Assembly: GCA_938074205.1 (NCBI GenBank)
Contig: CALJES010000003.1
Location: 62,001-126,000, forward strand
Length of the DNA stretch: 64,000 bases
Source: an uncultured bacterium
GTDB lineage: Bacteria > Armatimonadota > UBA5829
Reading direction: 5' to 3'
In this document: positions 5,919-18,001 of the stretch, piece by piece
Layout: the number at the start of each line of letters is the position of its first letter
Position numbering within the stretch: position 1 is the stretch's first letter
Made by a program: the position numbers and the translations under genes
The notes under the pieces: generated by a model
Seen by the model: only the letters and a program-made list of their open reading frames with translations
What the model was told of the DNA's origin: nothing
The model's database searches: none

Positions 5919-6692
5919 CTATCGACTGCCAGTTCCAATACCCTTGTCGACTAAGTATCTGTAACTTTTCTTCACTGCTTCCAGCATGTCGGTGGCACAG
6001 GCGTCGAGCTCCACGATCAGCCACTGTAGGACAGTAGAATCTGCCGCGCCTATTATTGCAGGCATATTGAGCTTTCCTGAACCTACGGCGGTGTGAGTGT
6101 GATCTCCCTCAACGAGCATGCCGTCCTTGACGTGGAGCAGAGGTATCCGAGAACCGTGTTTAGACAGTACGGCAATAGGATCCGCCTTTCCATAAGCACA
6201 CCAATAAACGTCCAGCTCGCTGAACACGTCAGGTGCCTCTTCCAGCAGAATGTCGTATATGTATCTGTCGTCTCCTCGGAGCTTGTCGAATTCCCACCAG
6301 TGGTTATGAAATCCGAACGTCATCCCATATGGTTTCAGAAGCTCATATGCTTCCTGGAATTTAGCTGCCGCCGCCTTTATCGAATCGAGCGTATCGAAAT
6401 CTTTTGGTCCGAAACCTCCTATCACACGTGTATTTCCGAGAGTTGCCTGCTCGTCAGCGATCCGCTTTACCGTCTCGGCATCCGGCACTCCGACGTGTGC
6501 GGCACATATCGTTAGTCCCAGATCGGTTGCTACTTTGGCTATTTCTTTCGGATCGTATCCGTGAAGACCTGCTGTTTCGACACCGGCATATCCGATTTCT
6601 GCAACAGTTTTCAGGACATTGGGCAGATTGCTGCCGCCGGGATATACGTCTTCCCGTAGAGTGTAGAGCTGCAAAGCTAAAGGTTTTGCCAT
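5919..6692 (-). CDS. Sugar phosphate isomerase/epimerase-like (xylose isomerase-like TIM barrel)
   Basis: 257 residues; ATG preceded by AAGGAG about 9 nt upstream. It opens with LQLYTLREDV, the classic start of AP endonuclease family 2 / xylose-isomerase-like barrels. It then shows IGYAGVETAGLHG, AAHVGVP, FGFHNHWWEF (metal-ligand His region), FSELDVYWCAYGKADP and PLLHVKDGM, all at the usual strand ends. The catalytic/metal residues of this fold (Glu, Asp, His, Glu) have plausible counterparts. Members isomerise or epimerise sugars, sugar acids or inositol derivatives. No signal peptide is seen. It sits at the end of a minus-strand run after the alpha/beta-hydrolase gene but with a 150 nt gap, so co-transcription is uncertain. 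Confidence 0.88.
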   Translation of the reverse strand: MAKPLALQLYTLREDVYPGGSNLPNVLKTVAEIGYAGVETAGLHGYDPKEIAKVATDLGLTICAAHVGVPDAETVKRIADEQATLGNTRVIGGFGPKDFDTLDSIKAAAAKFQEAYELLKPYGMTFGFHNHWWEFDKLRGDDRYIYDILLEEAPDVFSELDVYWCAYGKADPIAVLSKHGSRIPLLHVKDGMLVEGDHTHTAVGSGKLNMPAIIGAADSTVLQWLIVELDACATDMLEAVKKSYRYLVDKGIGTGSR

Positions 6693-6843
6693 GGTCGTCT
6701 TCTCCTTATCGCAGGGCAGGATTTAATTGACAGGGTCTATTTCGCCGCCGGCCACCGCGATACCTTTGCCGAGTCAAATCTTGGGCAGCGGAATGCCCAG
6801 TGGTTGCGATCGGAGAATCATCTGTCGAATTTGCGAGCTGTGG

Positions 6844-7554
6844 TCAAATGCTTGAGTCTGCAGACTTAACCAGATGTTTTCTGAACCAGTCTGCTGTCAA
6901 GCGCGCCACTTCTTCCAGTGCACCAGGTTCTTCGAACAGATGTGTCGCACCCGGAACGATAACGAGCTCCTTTGGACAAGTCATTACCTCAAACGCTTCG
7001 CGATTTAAGGGGATTATCAGATAGTCGCAGCCGCCCACAATGAGCAACGTAGGACATTTGACTGAAGTCAAGAAATGAGCGGCCAAGTCAGGTCTCCCAC
7101 CTCGCGATACGACAGCGCCCACAGTGCTTCCAAGAACTGCGGCTGCCTGAAGGGCAGCTGCTGCGCCTGTCGATGCTCCGAAATAGCCGATCGAAAGACG
7201 TGAGGTGTCAGGATTGTTCATCAATAACTCTGTGGCACTTGCTAGTCGCTGTGCAAGCAAATCTATATCGAAGATCTTGTTCCGGTTTTCAGCTTCCTCC
7301 GGTTCCAGTAAGTCCATAAGAAGCGTGCCAAATCCTGCCTGCTGCAATATACCAGCGACGAACTGATTTCTCGGGCTGAACCTACTGCTGCCACTGCCGT
7401 GGGCGAAAACAATTACCCCACCAGCACCTTCTGGCACAACCAAAATCCCGGGCAAGACTGCCGAACCGGACATAACTTCGATTTCCCTATCGATCTGCAT
7501 TTTCATCTTTCGCCACCCCAACGTTGACATCACTTCCGTGGGAACCTTTCCCAT
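6844..7554 (-). CDS. Dienelactone hydrolase-like alpha/beta hydrolase
   Basis: Up to 236 residues. The serine-hydrolase triad is readable: nucleophile Ser in YFGASTGAAAAL (GxSxG), Asp in VGGCDYLI and His in GATHLFEE. FAHGSGSSRFSPRN near the N-terminus is the oxyanion-hole strand typical of DeoC/dienelactone hydrolase-like enzymes that act on small esters or carboxylated rings. The 7554 ATG has no clear ribosome site. Family members usually begin just before the MQIDREIEV stretch, so a start about 16-18 residues later is equally likely. No signal peptide. Cytoplasmic esterase/hydrolase activity is supported; the substrate is unknown. Confidence 0.85.
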   Translation of the reverse strand: MGKVPTEVMSTLGWRKMKMQIDREIEVMSGSAVLPGILVVPEGAGGVIVFAHGSGSSRFSPRNQFVAGILQQAGFGTLLMDLLEPEEAENRNKIFDIDLLAQRLASATELLMNNPDTSRLSIGYFGASTGAAAALQAAAVLGSTVGAVVSRGGRPDLAAHFLTSVKCPTLLIVGGCDYLIIPLNREAFEVMTCPKELVIVPGATHLFEEPGALEEVARLTADWFRKHLVKSADSSI

Positions 7555-7638: not shown

Positions 7639-8940
7639 TTAGCGAACGACTAGCCTGCGAGCAATGGCCGAATTGGGATTCTGAGCCCTGACAATTTGAT
7701 ACTCCTTTGCCGCTTCGGAGTGAAGGCCTAGAGATTCGTATACGACTGCAAGTGCTAGATGTGAACCAGGCATAGCGCGCTTAACGGTTGACATTAGGGA
7801 TAGTTCCGAAGAGGACAAAACACGAAATGCGCCAGCAGCCGAATTTGACCAGCCGTCGTTTTCGCCAAACCTTGCTCCGACACGCCACAGGTATAATCTG
7901 CCGCGCTGAAGTGGTTTATCGAGCTTAAATTGTGTACCGGTAACAGTTGCCTCGTAGACCATGTTGCCGCTCTGGTCGGCGATGACCAGCCTGTACGACT
8001 CAGCAAGGTCAGCTCTGGACCAACTGAATACTGGTCGATCCTCAATTACCGTAATTCCAACCGGCCGCAGCAACTTGGGTGCAGTCGGTTCGGGCACAAA
8101 CCCCGACGGATCCCTCAAGCGCACAGCGTTCAGCGCAACGCTTATGGGCTTCGCAGGCTTAACATTCCCAGTTCTGACCTTTTCGGCAATGAGCCTTGCC
8201 ACGCGAGCCTCAAGTGGTGTATTGATGGACCGACTGCGAGGGCCAATCAGCACATATCTTCCGTCAGACTTGACTAGTCTGTAATTGCCGTCCCGTAGCA
8301 AGACTTCGGTTACATTGGCATATTGACCCTGTTTCGGCTGCGCAGTAACAGCTTGAGCAAATGTCTGCTTGCCGGTTTGAGAGTTTGTCGGACGTGGGGT
8401 TTTTGCTGGGGTGGGGGCGTTTCGAGTTTCGATGCGTTTGGCGACTGCGGCGGGCCTGACGTCCACTTTGTCGGAAGGCTCGTTCAAAGTCAGTATAAAG
8501 GCAGCAAGGGCTACGGCAGCAGTGCCGGCCGCCACCACAACCTTCCACCACCTTGGCTGATATATAATACCTCGACTAATTATCTTTGGCTCGACGGTTA
8601 TCGGCCCACGCAAGTGCCCTTGTGCTCGCAGTTCTTGCATCCGTTGTACGTCGCGATAGCACAGGTGACACGAGTTGATATGCGATCTTACGAGGTCGGA
8701 ATCTGATTTGTCCAAGGCTTCATCCAGGAAAGCTGACAGGGTTTCGTAATCAGGACAATCTTGCAAGGAGGCAATCTGCGCTGCGAGCGAACCTACTGCC
8801 GCTTTCGTGAGGCGCAAGTTGTGCAAGCGGTTCTTACACTGCTCACACGTTCGCAAGTGGGCATCGGCCGCCAAAAGCGAAGCGCTATTCAGACGAGCTG
8901 ATATATATTGTTCCAGTTCTCTATCGTCTAAGCAGCTCAT
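7639..8940 (-). CDS. Membrane anti-sigma factor with two zinc fingers and an exported FN3-like/TPR tail
   Basis: 433 residues. Two HxxxCxxC zinc anti-sigma signatures occur in tandem near the N-terminus (HLRTCEQC about residue 27, HINSCHLC about 87). A transmembrane helix (VVVAAGTAAVALAAFIL, about 135-155) is followed by a low-complexity linker. The exported part holds a beta-sandwich like FN3 (FSWSRADLAESYRLVI ... LYLWRVGARF, about 290-370) and a final TPR-like helix pair. The gene follows the sigma factor in the same direction, 131 nt downstream. By family knowledge, such proteins hold an ECF sigma at the membrane until an envelope signal arrives. Two fingers instead of one is less usual. 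Confidence 0.85.
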   Translation of the reverse strand: MSCLDDRELEQYISARLNSASLLAADAHLRTCEQCKNRLHNLRLTKAAVGSLAAQIASLQDCPDYETLSAFLDEALDKSDSDLVRSHINSCHLCYRDVQRMQELRAQGHLRGPITVEPKIISRGIIYQPRWWKVVVAAGTAAVALAAFILTLNEPSDKVDVRPAAVAKRIETRNAPTPAKTPRPTNSQTGKQTFAQAVTAQPKQGQYANVTEVLLRDGNYRLVKSDGRYVLIGPRSRSINTPLEARVARLIAEKVRTGNVKPAKPISVALNAVRLRDPSGFVPEPTAPKLLRPVGITVIEDRPVFSWSRADLAESYRLVIADQSGNMVYEATVTGTQFKLDKPLQRGRLYLWRVGARFGENDGWSNSAAGAFRVLSSSELSLMSTVKRAMPGSHLALAVVYESLGLHSEAAKEYQIVRAQNPNSAIARRLVVR

Positions 8941-9071
8941 ATCAAAAATTCATCCCAACACTTATTTCAAGACGCAGAGAATTCAAGCTTATCGCCCAGG
9001 GATTCTATAAGCATGATTGTCTTCTCGAAGATTGATCTTGGTGCTTAAACCCAATGGGTTCTAGCGCGCTG

Positions 9072-10118
9072 CTAATCGTCATATGTCAATCCGGCCTTCT
9101 CTGTTCTTCGCCGGATGCGTCCCCAAGCCTTAAACCGGACACTCGGAACAGCCTTCGTCGGAATGTTTAACTCGTCAGCGATGACAGAATCCGGCAGAGG
9201 CAGCTCAGCAATTAAATCAGCCGCCCGTTCAGGCGACATTTCTAGAGCTGCCGCTACTTCTGAAAAGTCTACTACTGAAGCTATAGCCATCACTTGCTCA
9301 GGAGACATTCCGAGTATTATTGCTTTGCGTTGCTTGACTGACAGTTGGAGGAACTCATTCCAAAACCAATCCAAAACATGCCTAAACCACGCGGCGTCGA
9401 TAACCTGATCTTCTACGCCGGCGCCGGGAGAAATTAACCAATCCACAGGCGCTGAAGAATCGGAATCCGGATCGGAAACCGTATCAATGGACAGCGGATC
9501 CTCATTTTTTGCTTGCAGTAGCTCCGCGATGCAACCGGTAAGCGTATCCAACTCAACCGGTCCGCCGCAGTAATCTAGAACTGCAGCCGTTAATTCGTAG
9601 AGCGGAAGCTCCCGTGGATCGCGCTTTTCGAGGAAGTGCGATCTGAACTTTTCCTGGTTGTCAATAAGCCAACGGCACTTCGCAGTTGCTGAGCGGCTCT
9701 CCTGTTCCCACTGAGCGTACCCGCACATTCGCGCACCTGTCTTTTGGCATTGCCATATAGCAAAACCTGAGACACCGGTCTTGCCAGAAAGAGTTTCCAT
9801 CAGCTCAAGCTTGAGGTTGTACCACTTGGGACGCTTACGCCTTATGCAGTCACAGTACCTGTTGTGCACCGCTTGACGTACAAAAGCTTCCAAGTTGGTT
9901 ATGCTCGAGGTAGCGGTATCTCCGGAGGCTAGTGTTGCTATCTTACACCATACGGCAGCTACACATTCATCTTCGAAGTCGTCGAGGTCCGTTGTTGGAT
10001 ATCGGGCAACCGCTTTGTGGACAAGTTGCCTAACAATTCGGGCCAGCAGCTCCTCATATGTCCTGTTGTCGGTGCCTGAGCTGCCGAGATACGCTTCCAG
10101 AAGTTTCTGCGCGTTCAC
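9072..10118 (-). CDS. Divergent ECF-type sigma factor with a large internal insertion
   Basis: 348 residues, about twice the length of a standard ECF sigma. Residues about 20-100 fit sigma region 2 (LDDFEDECVAAVWCKI ... FVRQAVHNRYCDCIRRKRP). About 100-230 have no ECF counterpart. The C-terminal 110 residues fit region 4: LSVKQRKAIIL, then a helix-turn-helix ending DSVIADELNIPTKAVPSVRF and the basic WGRIRRR. GTG start, with a GAGGAT-like ribosome site. It lies 28 nt after the CHAT gene and before the anti-sigma gene, so it is likely co-transcribed and controlled by that partner. The insertion could bind the anti-sigma or the CHAT protein; this is conjecture. The sigma assignment is good, its regulon unknown. 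Confidence 0.8.
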   Translation of the reverse strand: MNAQKLLEAYLGSSGTDNRTYEELLARIVRQLVHKAVARYPTTDLDDFEDECVAAVWCKIATLASGDTATSSITNLEAFVRQAVHNRYCDCIRRKRPKWYNLKLELMETLSGKTGVSGFAIWQCQKTGARMCGYAQWEQESRSATAKCRWLIDNQEKFRSHFLEKRDPRELPLYELTAAVLDYCGGPVELDTLTGCIAELLQAKNEDPLSIDTVSDPDSDSSAPVDWLISPGAGVEDQVIDAAWFRHVLDWFWNEFLQLSVKQRKAIILGMSPEQVMAIASVVDFSEVAAALEMSPERAADLIAELPLPDSVIADELNIPTKAVPSVRFKAWGRIRRRTEKAGLTYDD

Positions 10119-10146
10119 AAAACAATCCTCACGGTGAGATAGCCGA

Positions 10147-13100
10147 CTACAATGGATTCCCGTAAAGAACGAAGCAAGCCCAGTAAAACGGGTGAGCGTA
10201 GCGTTTAGATTCTATCATACTCAGCATCGCGTTTCTGAGCGACTCGACACGCGTTCTGCCTCTACTCAGCTCGCGATAGAATAGACCCATCGCTTCGGCT
10301 GCTGCCTCATCGGAAACCTTCCAGGCGCTCCCAATAACAGCTTGTGCCCCGGCAAGAGTAAATAGCTCGGCTGCCCTTGCCGGACCAGACGAGAGTGGGT
10401 CGAGCGAACCTATAGTCTCGCAGGCCGAGAGCACCACCAGTTTAACATTCGAAAAGTTGACGCGAGAAAGTTCTTGAATGCCGATAGCGCCATCTGACTT
10501 TGAGTCCGGTGCCAGGCGCAATTGAAAGCCTGAAGGATTCGCGTCAATTCGGTGGTGGACGGCTATGTGTAGTACTCCTCCTTGAGCAATGGCGTTAAGA
10601 AAGTTTGTGGCTGTTGCTCTTTCCGGTCCTACGAACCATCTGCTGCAGATGTAGCCGTCTTTCACGTTTGTTGCTTCTTTTCGTGCACCTGGCAGGTTTC
10701 CTTCGGGATCAGCAAACACCCAGACCCAATCGGTTTTTGGGTCTATGGCGCAACACCTCTCATCACATACAAGATTCAGCATCCCCCTGCCGATGTAACT
10801 AACCCTGAATCTGCTGAGCACGAATTGCGGTTTACCGTCTTTTTCCATTGAGATGAGCGCATGCATTGGAATGCCTTGCAACTCAGTCGGGAGGGCAAAT
10901 ATCAGGTGCGATTTATCTTGTATCAAATCGCCGAGCGGTGCTAACAGGAGGGTGTAAAGCTCCTCAAGCGGCTGTTTTATTTCAAGGAAAGGTGGCTCCT
11001 GCCAAGTCGTTACAGGCGGCACTGGTATTCCGGCCGCCAGGTTGTCTTCGCAGTTCATAAGCAATCGTCGTAGCCGGTCGACCGCAGCTTCGACTGTGCT
11101 ACGGCTCGCTGTTATCTGCCGACAAATGGCTGCGGTATTAGTGCATGTGAACGCGTAAAGTGAAGGTCCGGTGACCAGGTACTCTACCAACACGGCTTCG
11201 TTCGAAAGTTTGCCACGAAGTCTGACCATGTCAAGAGGGTTGATGGGCAATGCCGTGTACTCGCGTGGGTATTGACTCTCCAGCCACCAACAGGCCTGCG
11301 CATACTGTGCCCAGTCGCTGCCAGAGGCTTTATCCACTGCCGCCTCCGTATTTACGATCAAATCATTTAGCGACCCAAGTTCTATTGTCCTCGCCCACTG
11401 TGCCACGGCGGGCTCTGAAACCTCATCCACCAGGTCTGACACTACGCGGTCAAACCAGCTATAGTTGCGAGCTTTTGCAAATAAGGCGCTAGCGCGCTCG
11501 GCATTACCTGCACGGACGTAGTACCGTGCGAGATCTCTGTAGAGGCTAGCGATGAGCTTTGAACGTTCCGGTCCCCAATCCTGCTCTGAACGTTCTGCTC
11601 CGTAGACACCCTCTATGCGTCGGATGGCGTCCTCTAAAGTGGCACAAGCAGCCTCAATCTGTCCTGCCTGTTGTTGAACCTTTGAAAGCGAAAGCGCAGT
11701 TTGTGCTCCGGACCAAACGTCGCCTGCTTGATCGATATACCGCTTTATTGCCAGTTTGTAGTCGTCGATCGCCGCATCGTAGTTCTTGTTCTCAGCCAAC
11801 AGAGCGGCCCTGGATTCCAACACGCCTGCGGCTCCTCTGACATTGCCTGTCTCTTCGACTATCGGTACAAGTTCCGTGAATCCTTCCAACGCATTCGAGA
11901 CGTCTCCCTGTTTGATGAACGAGTCGACTATATCTCGGACAATCTCTGCCGCCACTTCACCAAGTTTTGCAGCGCGTGCGAGCACAACTGCATTTCTGCG
12001 CACCTCTAGAGCTTTATTGAGCTGACCGTCGTATTCCAAACAAGATGCCAAAGCGCGCATGCATCTCAGCTGCTGATCAACCTGTGCTGATTTCTTGAAT
12101 ACTTCGGCTTGGCGGGACCACAGTACTGCCGCCCTTTGGTTTTCTCCAAGAGCTTGATATGCTAATGCTCCTTGTTCAACCACTGCAATGGATCTTGGAT
12201 CCACAACCTGTGATGGAGATATGCGCTGGAGTAAATTTTGCGACGCCGAATCAGCCTTTGCACCAGCTTCCAAGAGGATGCGCAATCTCTTGCTTCGCGC
12301 TGCAGTTTGATTTGCTGATTGGCCGAGCGCCGCGTATGTCTTGTCAAGTTCTTCGTACAGCTTAGCTGTCAACAGAGGATCTCCCTCGCGCTCACATGCA
12401 CCGTGAGCCTGTCTAAGAACGCTCAGGGCGTCGGAGGGATCACCAAGTGTGCGGCGCACCTCAGCAAGTTTGAACAGCGCACCAATAAGAGGAGTATACG
12501 ACTTTGCCAGCTCAGAGTAGCTGCGCAGTAATGGAATAGTCTTATTCCGTATGATTTGCACAGCGGTTCCAACATCACCTGCAGCCATTTGAGCTTCCCC
12601 AGCCTTCATATAGGCTAGACCCGCCAACTTCAAGCACTCAGCATTCTTGGGGTCTTCTTTGCTAATTTGCTCCCACTGCCGCGCAGCCTCAATGTAGTGC
12701 TGAGATGCACCGGAATACCTGCCAGCAGAAGAGTTTAACGTGCCCCAATCTTCATGCGTAAGTGCGAGTATCGATCTGCAACGATATGCTGCAAAAGTCC
12801 ACGCCGCACGCTCGTAATAGGTCTCTGCGGAACTCAGGCGTTCTAGATCGTAGCAATACACATCACCTAAAAGTTTCATAGTGAGTGCCTGAGATACGTC
12901 AAGGGACATTTTGCCGCACAAACTGGACACGTTCCGTAGGGCTTCTGCAACTTCAACACGCGAAGACCCTCGGTAAGCTATGGCAGCTGCAAATTGCGTC
13001 TTCAAACGAAACAGGTCGCTGCTATCAGTATCCGACTTTGGCGGCATCTTAACATCTGCGTCACCTCTGTTATTTGTGCTGAAAAAGTCAGCCGCCCAGT

Positions 13101-13425
13101 CGACAGTCGGATTTGCAAGCGCGCGTGCCACCATACCAATTATGCTGTCAACATTTGGGATATCTGATGGAATGCCAGCTGACTTTGATGCCCAAGTGTA
13201 GAAAGCCAAATCTATTGCAAGCTCAAACAATTCTTGAGGGTTGTTTTGAGCGAGTTGTACTGCTCGCTGACTAAGAAGCCGACCGGTAGTAGACTGTCGT
13301 AGCATTTGCAGCATTCTAGGCTTGGTCAAGCCGTCTGAATAGGCGGATCCTGTGACATCGAATCCGTAAACAATTACCGCGACGGCAAGCAGGGAGCATA
13401 TACAGATTGTACGCCGAGAACACAT
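10147..13425 (-). CDS. TPR-rich protein with C-terminal CHAT (caspase-like) peptidase domain
   Basis: 1092 residues. A hydrophobic N-terminal segment (residues 8-28) acts as signal peptide or anchor. About residues 100-700 are tandem TPR-like helical hairpins (AGEAQMAAGDVGTAVQI, YQALGENQRAAVLW). The final 330 residues form a CHAT domain: LSNEAVLVEYLVT, LIFALPTELQGIPMHAL, the His loop LHIAVHH (H957 the likely catalytic His) and VLSACET (C1002, the nucleophile). It ends with the usual AGAQAVIGSAWKVSD and FYWACFVLYGNP. CHAT domains are cysteine proteases related to separase and gingipain. It lies between the PagL-like gene and the sigma gene, so regulated proteolysis in an envelope response is a reasonable inference. 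Confidence 0.9.
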   Translation of the reverse strand: MCSRRTICICSLLAVAVIVYGFDVTGSAYSDGLTKPRMLQMLRQSTTGRLLSQRAVQLAQNNPQELFELAIDLAFYTWASKSAGIPSDIPNVDSIIGMVARALANPTVDWAADFFSTNNRGDADVKMPPKSDTDSSDLFRLKTQFAAAIAYRGSSRVEVAEALRNVSSLCGKMSLDVSQALTMKLLGDVYCYDLERLSSAETYYERAAWTFAAYRCRSILALTHEDWGTLNSSAGRYSGASQHYIEAARQWEQISKEDPKNAECLKLAGLAYMKAGEAQMAAGDVGTAVQIIRNKTIPLLRSYSELAKSYTPLIGALFKLAEVRRTLGDPSDALSVLRQAHGACEREGDPLLTAKLYEELDKTYAALGQSANQTAARSKRLRILLEAGAKADSASQNLLQRISPSQVVDPRSIAVVEQGALAYQALGENQRAAVLWSRQAEVFKKSAQVDQQLRCMRALASCLEYDGQLNKALEVRRNAVVLARAAKLGEVAAEIVRDIVDSFIKQGDVSNALEGFTELVPIVEETGNVRGAAGVLESRAALLAENKNYDAAIDDYKLAIKRYIDQAGDVWSGAQTALSLSKVQQQAGQIEAACATLEDAIRRIEGVYGAERSEQDWGPERSKLIASLYRDLARYYVRAGNAERASALFAKARNYSWFDRVVSDLVDEVSEPAVAQWARTIELGSLNDLIVNTEAAVDKASGSDWAQYAQACWWLESQYPREYTALPINPLDMVRLRGKLSNEAVLVEYLVTGPSLYAFTCTNTAAICRQITASRSTVEAAVDRLRRLLMNCEDNLAAGIPVPPVTTWQEPPFLEIKQPLEELYTLLLAPLGDLIQDKSHLIFALPTELQGIPMHALISMEKDGKPQFVLSRFRVSYIGRGMLNLVCDERCCAIDPKTDWVWVFADPEGNLPGARKEATNVKDGYICSRWFVGPERATATNFLNAIAQGGVLHIAVHHRIDANPSGFQLRLAPDSKSDGAIGIQELSRVNFSNVKLVVLSACETIGSLDPLSSGPARAAELFTLAGAQAVIGSAWKVSDEAAAEAMGLFYRELSRGRTRVESLRNAMLSMIESKRYAHPFYWACFVLYGNPL

Positions 13426-13503
13426 TCGTGTGCATCTCTAGAATTTACAATATTTGCTTTCAAGTTCATTGTAGCATCTTCAAATAAATGTTGAGCCAAA
13501 TCT

Positions 13504-14076
13504 CTACCTGTACCAGGAAACTCCTATATTCCAAATGCTTGCATTTATACCGAGGTTAGGTAGTCTCAATCCTGCGTTTGAATTGTGCGAGAAGACATAA
13601 CCGAGAGTCACCGCCGTATTTGAGCCAGTGGCCAAGTGCAGGGATATCCCCAGATGTTCTGTGAAGTTTATCCTTGTACTGTGAGCGATTAATCTTTTTT
13701 CGAAACAGACAACACCAAAACCGACGTCAAAAGCTACAGCGGCACTTCTCCTCACCGCGAGAAACCGTCGATAGCATCCTACAATGAACAATCCGTCGTT
13801 TTCAGGGCGCTCCTCTTCCTGTGCCAGAGCAAGTTCAATGGCATATTCTTCGCGCGGAGATACAAAGCTACCGCATCTCAGCTTCAGCAGTCGGAATGCG
13901 GTGAGATCAGTGGTTTTCCTAGGTATCCGGTGACTCTCGGCCTCAGCTAGAAACAGCGATAACTCTTGCTTACCTCGCTGGAAATCTTCGAAGCGCAACC
14001 GCTCAGCCAGTGCTTGAGTAGACACAGCTAAAATTAGGCTGATCAATATAGACAGAGAATTCCCTTTCAACACCAA
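13504..14076 (-). CDS. PagL-like lipid A 3-O-deacylase (acyloxyacyl hydrolase family)
   Basis: 190 residues with a signal peptide (about 1-24, ending TQALA). The C-terminal half is a short beta-barrel pattern ending in GVSWYR. The motif GYVFSHNSNAG (H164, S166) matches the catalytic HxSN of PagL. Fourteen residues after the His, where Pseudomonas PagL has the triad Glu, this protein has Asn (N178). Family members remove the 3-linked acyl chain of lipid A in the outer membrane. The start is one of TTG-GTG-TTG at 14076-14068. A TTGACC-18-TATATT promoter lies upstream. It is the first gene of the probable operon with the CHAT, sigma and anti-sigma genes. Confidence 0.72.
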   Translation of the reverse strand: MVLKGNSLSILISLILAVSTQALAERLRFEDFQRGKQELSLFLAEAESHRIPRKTTDLTAFRLLKLRCGSFVSPREEYAIELALAQEEERPENDGLFIVGCYRRFLAVRRSAAVAFDVGFGVVCFEKRLIAHSTRINFTEHLGISLHLATGSNTAVTLGYVFSHNSNAGLRLPNLGINASIWNIGVSWYR

Positions 14077-14113
14077 ATGCCAAATTCTGCAATTATTGCG
14101 GCCATACGCCGTA

Positions 14114-14143
14114 AATATAGTCCGTGCCTATCGTTATGGTCAA
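14114..14143 (-). promoter_or_regulatory. Predicted sigma70 promoter for the PagL-like/CHAT/sigma operon
   Basis: On the minus strand TTGACC (14143-14138) is followed by an 18-nt spacer and TATATT (14119-14114). Transcription would start about 30 nt before the PagL-like gene. The boxes match housekeeping consensus, so at least basal expression need not depend on the encoded sigma factor. Confidence 0.55.
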
Positions 14144-17006: not shown

Positions 17007-17046
17007 TAGGCTGCCCGCATATGACGGCGGGCAGCCTACTTTTTGT
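17007..17046 (+). terminator. Rho-independent terminator after the secreted propeller gene
   Basis: An inverted repeat TAGGCTGCCCGC / GCGGGCAGCCTA with a short loop is followed by CTTTTTG. It lies 24 nt after the stop codon at 16983 and separates that gene from the metal-importer operon. Confidence 0.9.
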
Positions 17047-17086
17047 ACGCTACTTCCTAGATGTAATTTCACTCAACAGAGTTTGC

Positions 17087-17092
17087 TATAAT
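17087..17092 (+). promoter_or_regulatory. TATAAT -10 box directly before the metal-importer operon
   Basis: TATAAT ends 9 nt before the ATG at 17102, and no Shine-Dalgarno is visible between. Transcription from this box would start at about 17099, giving an essentially leaderless mRNA. No good -35 box was seen 17 nt upstream, and no clear Zur-type palindrome. Confidence 0.45.
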
Positions 17093-17101
17093 GAATGCGT
17101 T

Positions 17102-18001
17102 ATGGAATGGGTGTGCAGCCGAGCTTTCAGATCAGTGACTATTTTGGTTGTGATTGCTATCGCGTGTGTCCAAGGCTGTGGGAAACGCACTTCACCCATG
17201 CGGAACTCGAAGCTCATAGTAGCGGCTGGTATTGCGCCGCTGGCTTATTTCACGCAGCGAATCGGGGGTGGATTGGTGGATGTAGAGCTGCTCGTTCCAC
17301 CGTCCGCTAATCCCCACACGTATCAGCCTAATCCTCGTCAGATGAAAAAGTTGGCCAAGGCTTCGATCTTGGTTTTAAATGGTTTGGGCGTCGAGTTTTG
17401 GGCATCAAATGCGGTCGAAACGGCGCAAAACCCAAATCTCATAACTGTTTACACCTCCGAAGGCCTTCCGCTTATAGGCGCGGATAAAAGTGGGTCGAAC
17501 GCTAATCCTCACGTATGGCTTGATCCGTTGAACGCAATGCATCAAGTCAGGTTGATCGAAAAGGCTTTAGCAAAGGTAGATCCCAGTCATGCAAACGTTT
17601 ACCGCCGGAACGCGGCACGCTTGATTTACAAGCTTCGCGAGCTGGATAGCGAAATAAAGGAATCCCTCAAGCACTTGAAATCGAGAGCTTTTGTATCGTC
17701 ACATCCCGCATGGACCTATTTCGCGAAGCGCTATGGACTTGTAGAAGCGGCAGTCATTGAAAAAAGTCCGGGGCAAGAACCTTCTCCGGCTGAGATTAGA
17801 CAGATAATCGACATTATCAGGCGGCGTGGCGTCAAGGTTATATTTGTTGAGCCACGGTCCACTTTCAAGAAGGCGGAGACTATTGCAGAAGAAACTGGTG
17901 CAAAGTTGATAGTACTCGATCCCCTGGGTTCCCCACCTGGTTATGATTATTTCAAGACAATGCGCAAGAACCTAACCGTTATGTCGGAGGCTATGCGATG
18001 A
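17102..18001 (+). CDS. Metal (Zn/Mn) ABC transporter substrate-binding lipoprotein, ZnuA/TroA family
   Basis: 299 residues from the ATG at 17102; longer forms of this frame lack a signal peptide start. The N-terminus is a lipoprotein signal (VTILVVIAIACVQGC, lipobox VQGC). Cluster 9 binding-protein landmarks follow: ANPHTYQPNPRQ (first metal His), NPHVWLDPLNAM (second His), FVSSHPAWTYFAKRYGL (third His) and EPRSTFKKAETIAEETGAKL leading to the last acidic ligand in VLDPLG. No His-rich loop is seen, so zinc versus manganese cannot be decided. It overlaps the ATPase gene by ATGA, giving the order binding protein, ATPase, permease. Confidence 0.9.
   Translation: MEWVCSRAFRSVTILVVIAIACVQGCGKRTSPMRNSKLIVAAGIAPLAYFTQRIGGGLVDVELLVPPSANPHTYQPNPRQMKKLAKASILVLNGLGVEFWASNAVETAQNPNLITVYTSEGLPLIGADKSGSNANPHVWLDPLNAMHQVRLIEKALAKVDPSHANVYRRNAARLIYKLRELDSEIKESLKHLKSRAFVSSHPAWTYFAKRYGLVEAAVIEKSPGQEPSPAEIRQIIDIIRRRGVKVIFVEPRSTFKKAETIAEETGAKLIVLDPLGSPPGYDYFKTMRKNLTVMSEAMR

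Follow-up and report, generated by a model that had tools for sequence, protein, structure and literature searches.

A CHAT-family, caspase-like protease encoded next to a sigma factor and a membrane anti-sigma factor raises the question of whether the protease controls the sigma factor by cutting its inhibitor. Such an arrangement occurs in the 64,000-nucleotide stretch of Armatimonadota DNA analysed here (the window). An initial annotation proposed that four minus-strand genes at this locus form an envelope-stress operon behind one promoter and mount a protease-gated response to outer-membrane damage. We compared the proteins, promoters and gene order of the window with those of relatives, of which those that bear names are Armatimonadota metagenome bins.

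Proteins and promoters of the locus

The four open reading frames were confirmed on the minus strand at 13504-14076, 10147-13425, 9072-10118 and 7639-8940. They encode, in that order, PagL-like, TPR-CHAT, sigma and anti-sigma proteins and are separated by 78, 28 and 131 nt, the first and last of these gaps being those given by the annotation. The features of the locus are listed below.

14114..14143, minus strand: sigma70-type promoter TTGACC-18-TATATT of the PagL-like gene
13504..14076, minus strand: PagL-like outer-membrane protein, 190 aa (PF09411, E=4.3e-12; His164, Ser166, Asn178)
13468..13476, minus strand: extended -10 element TGCTACAAT upstream of CHAT, conserved in the family
10147..13425, minus strand: TPR-CHAT protein, 1092 aa, with a hydrophobic N-terminal export/anchor segment, TPRs and a C-terminal CHAT domain
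10420..10557, minus strand: CHAT dyad His957 ... Cys1002, invariant in 10 orthologues
9072..10118, minus strand: divergent ECF-type sigma factor, 348 aa (sigma2 ~21-106, inserted middle ~110-240, sigma4 ~258-342)
8970..8996, minus strand: ECF-type promoter GGCGAT-N16-CGTCT of the anti-sigma gene (strict pattern in 13/14 orthologues)
7639..8940, minus strand: membrane anti-sigma factor, 433 aa (zf-HC2, E=4.5e-5; 8-sequence alignment; Fn3 fold)
8836..8934, minus strand: zinc finger 1 (C3, H28, C32, C35; 4/4 residues invariant in the 8-sequence alignment)
8659..8757, minus strand: zinc finger 2 (C62, H87, C91, C94; 4/4 residues invariant in the 8-sequence alignment)
8485..8541, minus strand: predicted single transmembrane helix, residues 134-152 (hydropathy peak in 8/8 orthologues)
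7645..8088, minus strand: extracytoplasmic Fn3-like domain and C-terminal helical (TPR-like) hairpins (AlphaFold model, Foldseek Fn3 matches)

Pfam searches bore out the TPR-CHAT identity of the largest protein (CHAT domain PF12770, E=1.4e-47, 163 bits; TPR_12, E=8e-18), and the annotated His957 and Cys1002 were found intact at those positions. The protein thus has the domain and His/Cys dyad that define CHAT proteases, with proteolysis itself predicted. Hydropathy revealed a hydrophobic N-terminus in 9/10 orthologues, and CHAT is predicted to be exported or anchored. No second CHAT gene was found in the genome, and a sequence search of solved structures with CHAT returned no match.

The ECF-like call for the sigma factor held through its relatives. 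A Pfam search of the window protein alone gave no match above cut-off, but 11/13 relatives matched TIGR02937 (sigma70-ECF; best E=4e-8), and Sigma70_r2 was matched weakly in 7/13. The ECF arrangement of sigma2 and sigma4 without sigma3 was therefore recognised via these relatives, the window protein itself falling below cut-offs and carrying an extra insert. The best Foldseek neighbours of an AlphaFold model of moderate confidence (pLDDT 76, pTM 0.46) were all weak; they were sigma32, sigmaA and sigma28 (E 0.03 and above) and, from the RslA complex, the sigma4 domain (TMt 0.70). By profile comparison, the middle insert shows a weak similarity to the winged helix of the delta subunit of RNAP (E=0.007).

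The two-finger membrane anti-sigma factor was likewise upheld, by a zf-HC2 match (PF13490, above cut-off), two invariant zinc sites and one transmembrane segment by hydropathy. These are the hallmarks of the ZAS/zf-HC2 group: an HX3CX2C finger with an upstream Cys and, usually, a single transmembrane segment. Foldseek matched its outer part to Fn3 domains with E from 2e-5 to 1e-3, and the Pfam match to TPR_14 was weak. This membrane zinc-finger protein is predicted to hold the cognate sigma back. Nearby, a gene for a ZnuA-type zinc-binding protein lies on the opposite strand (window 17021-18001). Downstream of the anti-sigma gene and on its strand are dienelactone-hydrolase-like and xylose-isomerase-like genes (window 5919-7554), a pair conserved in that place within the genus only (L018, L019).

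The claim that all four genes follow one promoter failed. The TTGACC-18-TATATT sequence is present at 14143-14114, and TTGAC-18-TATATT is conserved upstream of PagL in the congener L033. CHAT and the anti-sigma gene, however, are each preceded by a conserved promoter of their own, and on this ground we reject a single four-gene operon. Every family member examined carries TGNTANAAT upstream of CHAT (background 0.014 per 150 nt). A housekeeping-type promoter therefore probably drives CHAT, which for that reason would be an upstream input rather than a target of the sigma factor.

The promoter of the anti-sigma gene has a different character. ECF promoters take the shape of an AAC-like -35 and a CGTC -10, and GGC[A/G]AN-N16-CGTC precedes the anti-sigma gene in 13/14 orthologues drawn from two families (chance expectation ~0.003 per gene, 130 nt), the fourteenth (L163) being off at the last base. 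In the ten orthologues first examined, the site lies 48-85 nt before the start. Unlinked anti-sigma genes keep it too (L164, L165 and L166, and L163 with its last-base change), which speaks for the site being part of the anti-sigma gene's own regulation. At the anti-sigma genes of more distant members (L029 and beyond), the pattern was not found. Both this and the extended -10 pattern were picked after viewing the sequences, with counts far above chance. We expect from the promoter sequence that the cognate sigma feeds back on the anti-sigma gene. A genome-wide search with the exact ECF-type motif gave no excess over reversed-pattern controls and no regulon member besides the anti-sigma gene. 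In individual genomes, isolated matches precede an ORF by 45-68 nt (L141, at G013:C55:17846; L137; L142); by eye, one of these ORFs is cyclase-like and two are exported-looking.

Conservation of the CHAT, sigma and anti-sigma genes

CHAT, sigma and anti-sigma genes recur in the same order and strand at L018, L020, L021, L022, L023 and L027, and also at L029, from a different family. The synteny anticipated for four genes was thus conserved for these three, in several genera and one other family, but not for the PagL-like gene. Across 61 genomes, sigma and full-length CHAT were both present in 13, sigma alone in 1 and CHAT alone in 1 (Fisher p ~3e-11, a value that ignores phylogeny). The sigma-only genome is 67% complete, with its contig broken at sigma; in G003, CHAT and anti-sigma are present, no sigma was detected and the contig ends just after CHAT.

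Loci where the cluster is broken were also informative. In genus g4, CHAT is on another contig and sigma and anti-sigma are still together; G005 and G009 keep CHAT away from sigma; and G003, G014, G015 and G017 keep the anti-sigma gene at a separate locus. Genus g5 and family f3 are without sigma and CHAT, and their anti-sigma matches are weak zinc-finger ones or none. Because the genes are mostly co-retained where the cluster is broken, they behave as a functional unit, beyond chance adjacency, and by this comparative evidence they are a conserved three-gene module in Armatimonadota. Family f2 has its own arrangement: after the CHAT-sigma pair come genes for a second, canonical ECF sigma and the zf-HC2 protein that goes with it (L038 4727-6517, L039 4781-6495), and the two-finger anti-sigma is located elsewhere.

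A candidate protease-gated switch and its alternatives

The topology and dyad of CHAT, the zinc sites, transmembrane helix and outer part of the anti-sigma factor, and an M50 site-2 protease encoded in the genome together suit regulated intramembrane proteolysis in which CHAT would be the site-1 protease, a role that we infer from sequence. We therefore propose, with confidence evenly balanced, a protease-gated transcription switch in which exported CHAT cleaves the anti-sigma outside and frees a sigma that restocks its inhibitor. At rest, the two cytoplasmic zinc fingers of the inner-membrane anti-sigma would hold the divergent ECF sigma, leaving the Fn3-TPR region outside. The TPRs of exported CHAT would meet a periplasmic signal, whereupon this site-1 protease would cut the outer part of the anti-sigma; the M50 site-2 protease and cytoplasmic proteases would then complete its breakdown and release sigma. 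Freed sigma would transcribe the anti-sigma gene from a GGCAAC-N16-CGTC promoter (restoring repression) and also a small putative regulon.

The tie between CHAT and the sigma/anti-sigma pair is well supported by conserved synteny, co-retention when unlinked and the ECF-type promoter that precedes the anti-sigma gene. In favour of the switch, we further counted distant sigma/anti-sigma relatives found beside caspase C14, subtilase S8 and M14 genes, and the precedent of Csx29/Csx30. Against it, we counted G003 (no sigma detected), the lack of a genome-wide motif excess, the moderate sigma model, some distant sigma relatives beside kinases, FHA or NTPases, and an export of CHAT that is read from hydropathy only. 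Of the annotated response to outer-membrane damage, the tie of CHAT to sigma and anti-sigma is upheld; nothing specific speaks for the damage signal apart from the predicted exported location of the parts. In a broader version, which we hold tentatively and at somewhat less than even confidence, extracytoplasmic CHAT is a dedicated site-1 protease of the ECF anti-sigma, and the same chassis has been paired repeatedly with CHAT, caspase C14, subtilase and carboxypeptidase across Armatimonadota, which would make it akin in logic to Csx29/Csx30/CASP-sigma but independent of CRISPR.

CHAT might instead be a TPR sensor or scaffold, or process another periplasmic protein, and so be only functionally related to an anti-sigma freed by ligand or by Zn/redox sensing via its fingers or Fn3 domain. 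Many anti-sigma factors of the zf-HC2 type function with no dedicated protease linked to them, CHAT is unlinked from the sigma/anti-sigma genes in G005 and G009, and distant sigma relatives are accompanied by kinases or NTPases rather than proteases. A sensor or scaffold role is nevertheless rather unlikely in our view, given the strict conservation of His957/Cys1002, the co-retention of the genes and the repeated presence of various peptidase families in this neighbourhood.

We consider it improbable that the module is an envelope-stress operon with the PagL-like deacylase as its output and lipid A or outer-membrane damage as its signal. LpxC is encoded in 21/21 genomes searched; we accordingly take the relatives to be lipid A-making diderms and reject a host without lipid A. 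The PagL-like gene adjoins CHAT at four loci (co-directional in the window and L018, divergent in L020 and L022), and the annotated family (PF09411, 46.8 bits versus a cut-off of 23), His164 and Ser166 were all confirmed. Yet the two genes share a direction in the genus and nowhere else. At L024, the PagL-like gene lies 6 kb from sigma, with CHAT on another contig; it is distant in G004 (another contig) and G009, and absent from G007, G013, G015, G017 and G037, all of which keep the module. Its own promoter is of the sigma70 type, and no ECF-type site was seen upstream of it.

The protein itself also departs from its namesake. Like PagL lipid A 3-O-deacylase, it has the PF09411 match, an H-x-S-N-A-G motif and an N-terminal signal-like segment. 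The PagL catalytic triad includes a Glu, however, and alignment to P. aeruginosa PagL (PDB 2ERV) places Asn178 at the Glu140 position, an Asn found in all 13 homologues read in the window's lineage. The Ser-His-Glu triad is thus incomplete, and the PagL-like protein may be inactive or changed. On distribution and gene order we reject PagL as a core member; the gene is probably loosely linked and not part of the module, and the annotated placement of a lipid A enzyme in the same unit was not sustained.

An anti-phage or cell-suicide module, with CHAT as a caspase-like effector and sigma turning on defence genes, is similarly doubtful: TPR-CHAT, ECF sigma and inhibitor do reproduce the Csx29/CASP-sigma/Csx30 layout (PMC10028731), sigma relatives lie near NACHT, NB-ARC and caspase genes, and caspase conflict systems have been described with ECF sigma genes nearby (PMC8195603), but PADLOC models gave nothing beyond noise on the four proteins, the CASP-sigma model scored far below its cut-off (13.5 bits versus 100), CHAT is predicted to be exported, the module is mostly single-copy and kept along the family, and a search of viral contigs found no relatives.

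Known systems and the wider sigma family

Most bacterial CHAT proteases have, to our knowledge, no known physiological substrate. In the module, the outer region of the anti-sigma is a candidate one, the GGCRAN-N16-CGTC promoter could serve as a readout, and C1002A would be a simple mutant. If the proposed switch is true, sigma release gated by CHAT is not confined to CRISPR and can operate across the inner membrane, which would hint at the non-CRISPR counterparts of Csx29-type circuits.

Among the closest parallels in logic is the type III-E CRISPR circuit, in which Csx29 (TPR-CHAT) cleaves Csx30, the inhibitor of an ECF sigma (PMC10028731). There, too, a TPR-CHAT protein, an ECF-type sigma and an inhibitor are encoded together, and the protease lifts sigma inhibition. 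Unlike that circuit, the window has a CHAT with an export-like N-terminus and, as inhibitor, a zf-HC2 protein of the membrane whose outer part is Fn3-TPR, and no Cas7-11 or CRISPR array was noticed among the genes neighbouring the module. Membership of type III-E Craspase was rejected on the score of the CASP-sigma model (NF041236) and the empty PADLOC result.

ECF54 sigma genes occur with CHAT, subtilase and carboxypeptidase genes, and proteolytic control has been proposed for them with no anti-sigma factor described (PMC8999054). The wider set of relatives shares this context (CHAT, subtilase and M14 carboxypeptidase genes), but a two-finger membrane anti-sigma is present here, a distinction drawn from the published description of ECF54. 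With SigmaE/RseA/DegS-RseP, the module shares a membrane anti-sigma, expected stepwise proteolysis, an LPS-making diderm host and an M50 site-2 protease in the genome. It differs in having a CHAT cysteine protease in place of the PDZ-trypsin DegS and a tandem zinc-finger protein with Fn3-TPR in place of an RseA-type domain. Overall, protease, sigma and anti-sigma genes make up a three-gene module for which the sequence gives evidence of autoregulation and the proposed mechanism is plausible. It appears to be a protease-gated stress circuit, so far uncharacterised.

The neighbours of distant sigma relatives, some of which adjoin kinases, FHA or NTPases instead of proteases, hint at exchangeable input modules around the sigma family.

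Among individual loci, an anti-sigma-like gene adjoins the sigma relative beside caspase C14 (L110 6333-10919), beside subtilase S8 (L111 3880-9502) and on plasmid pIAD-21, where a subtilase gene lies ~2 kb further along (L158 7899-14637). The relative beside M14 carboxypeptidase (L115 8372-11190) is without one. Further sigma relatives lie near BTAD/cyclase/NB-ARC, NACHT, WD40 or Ser/Thr kinase genes (L109 3614-9389, L113 7853-12298, L114 7054-14033, L112 6780-8903).
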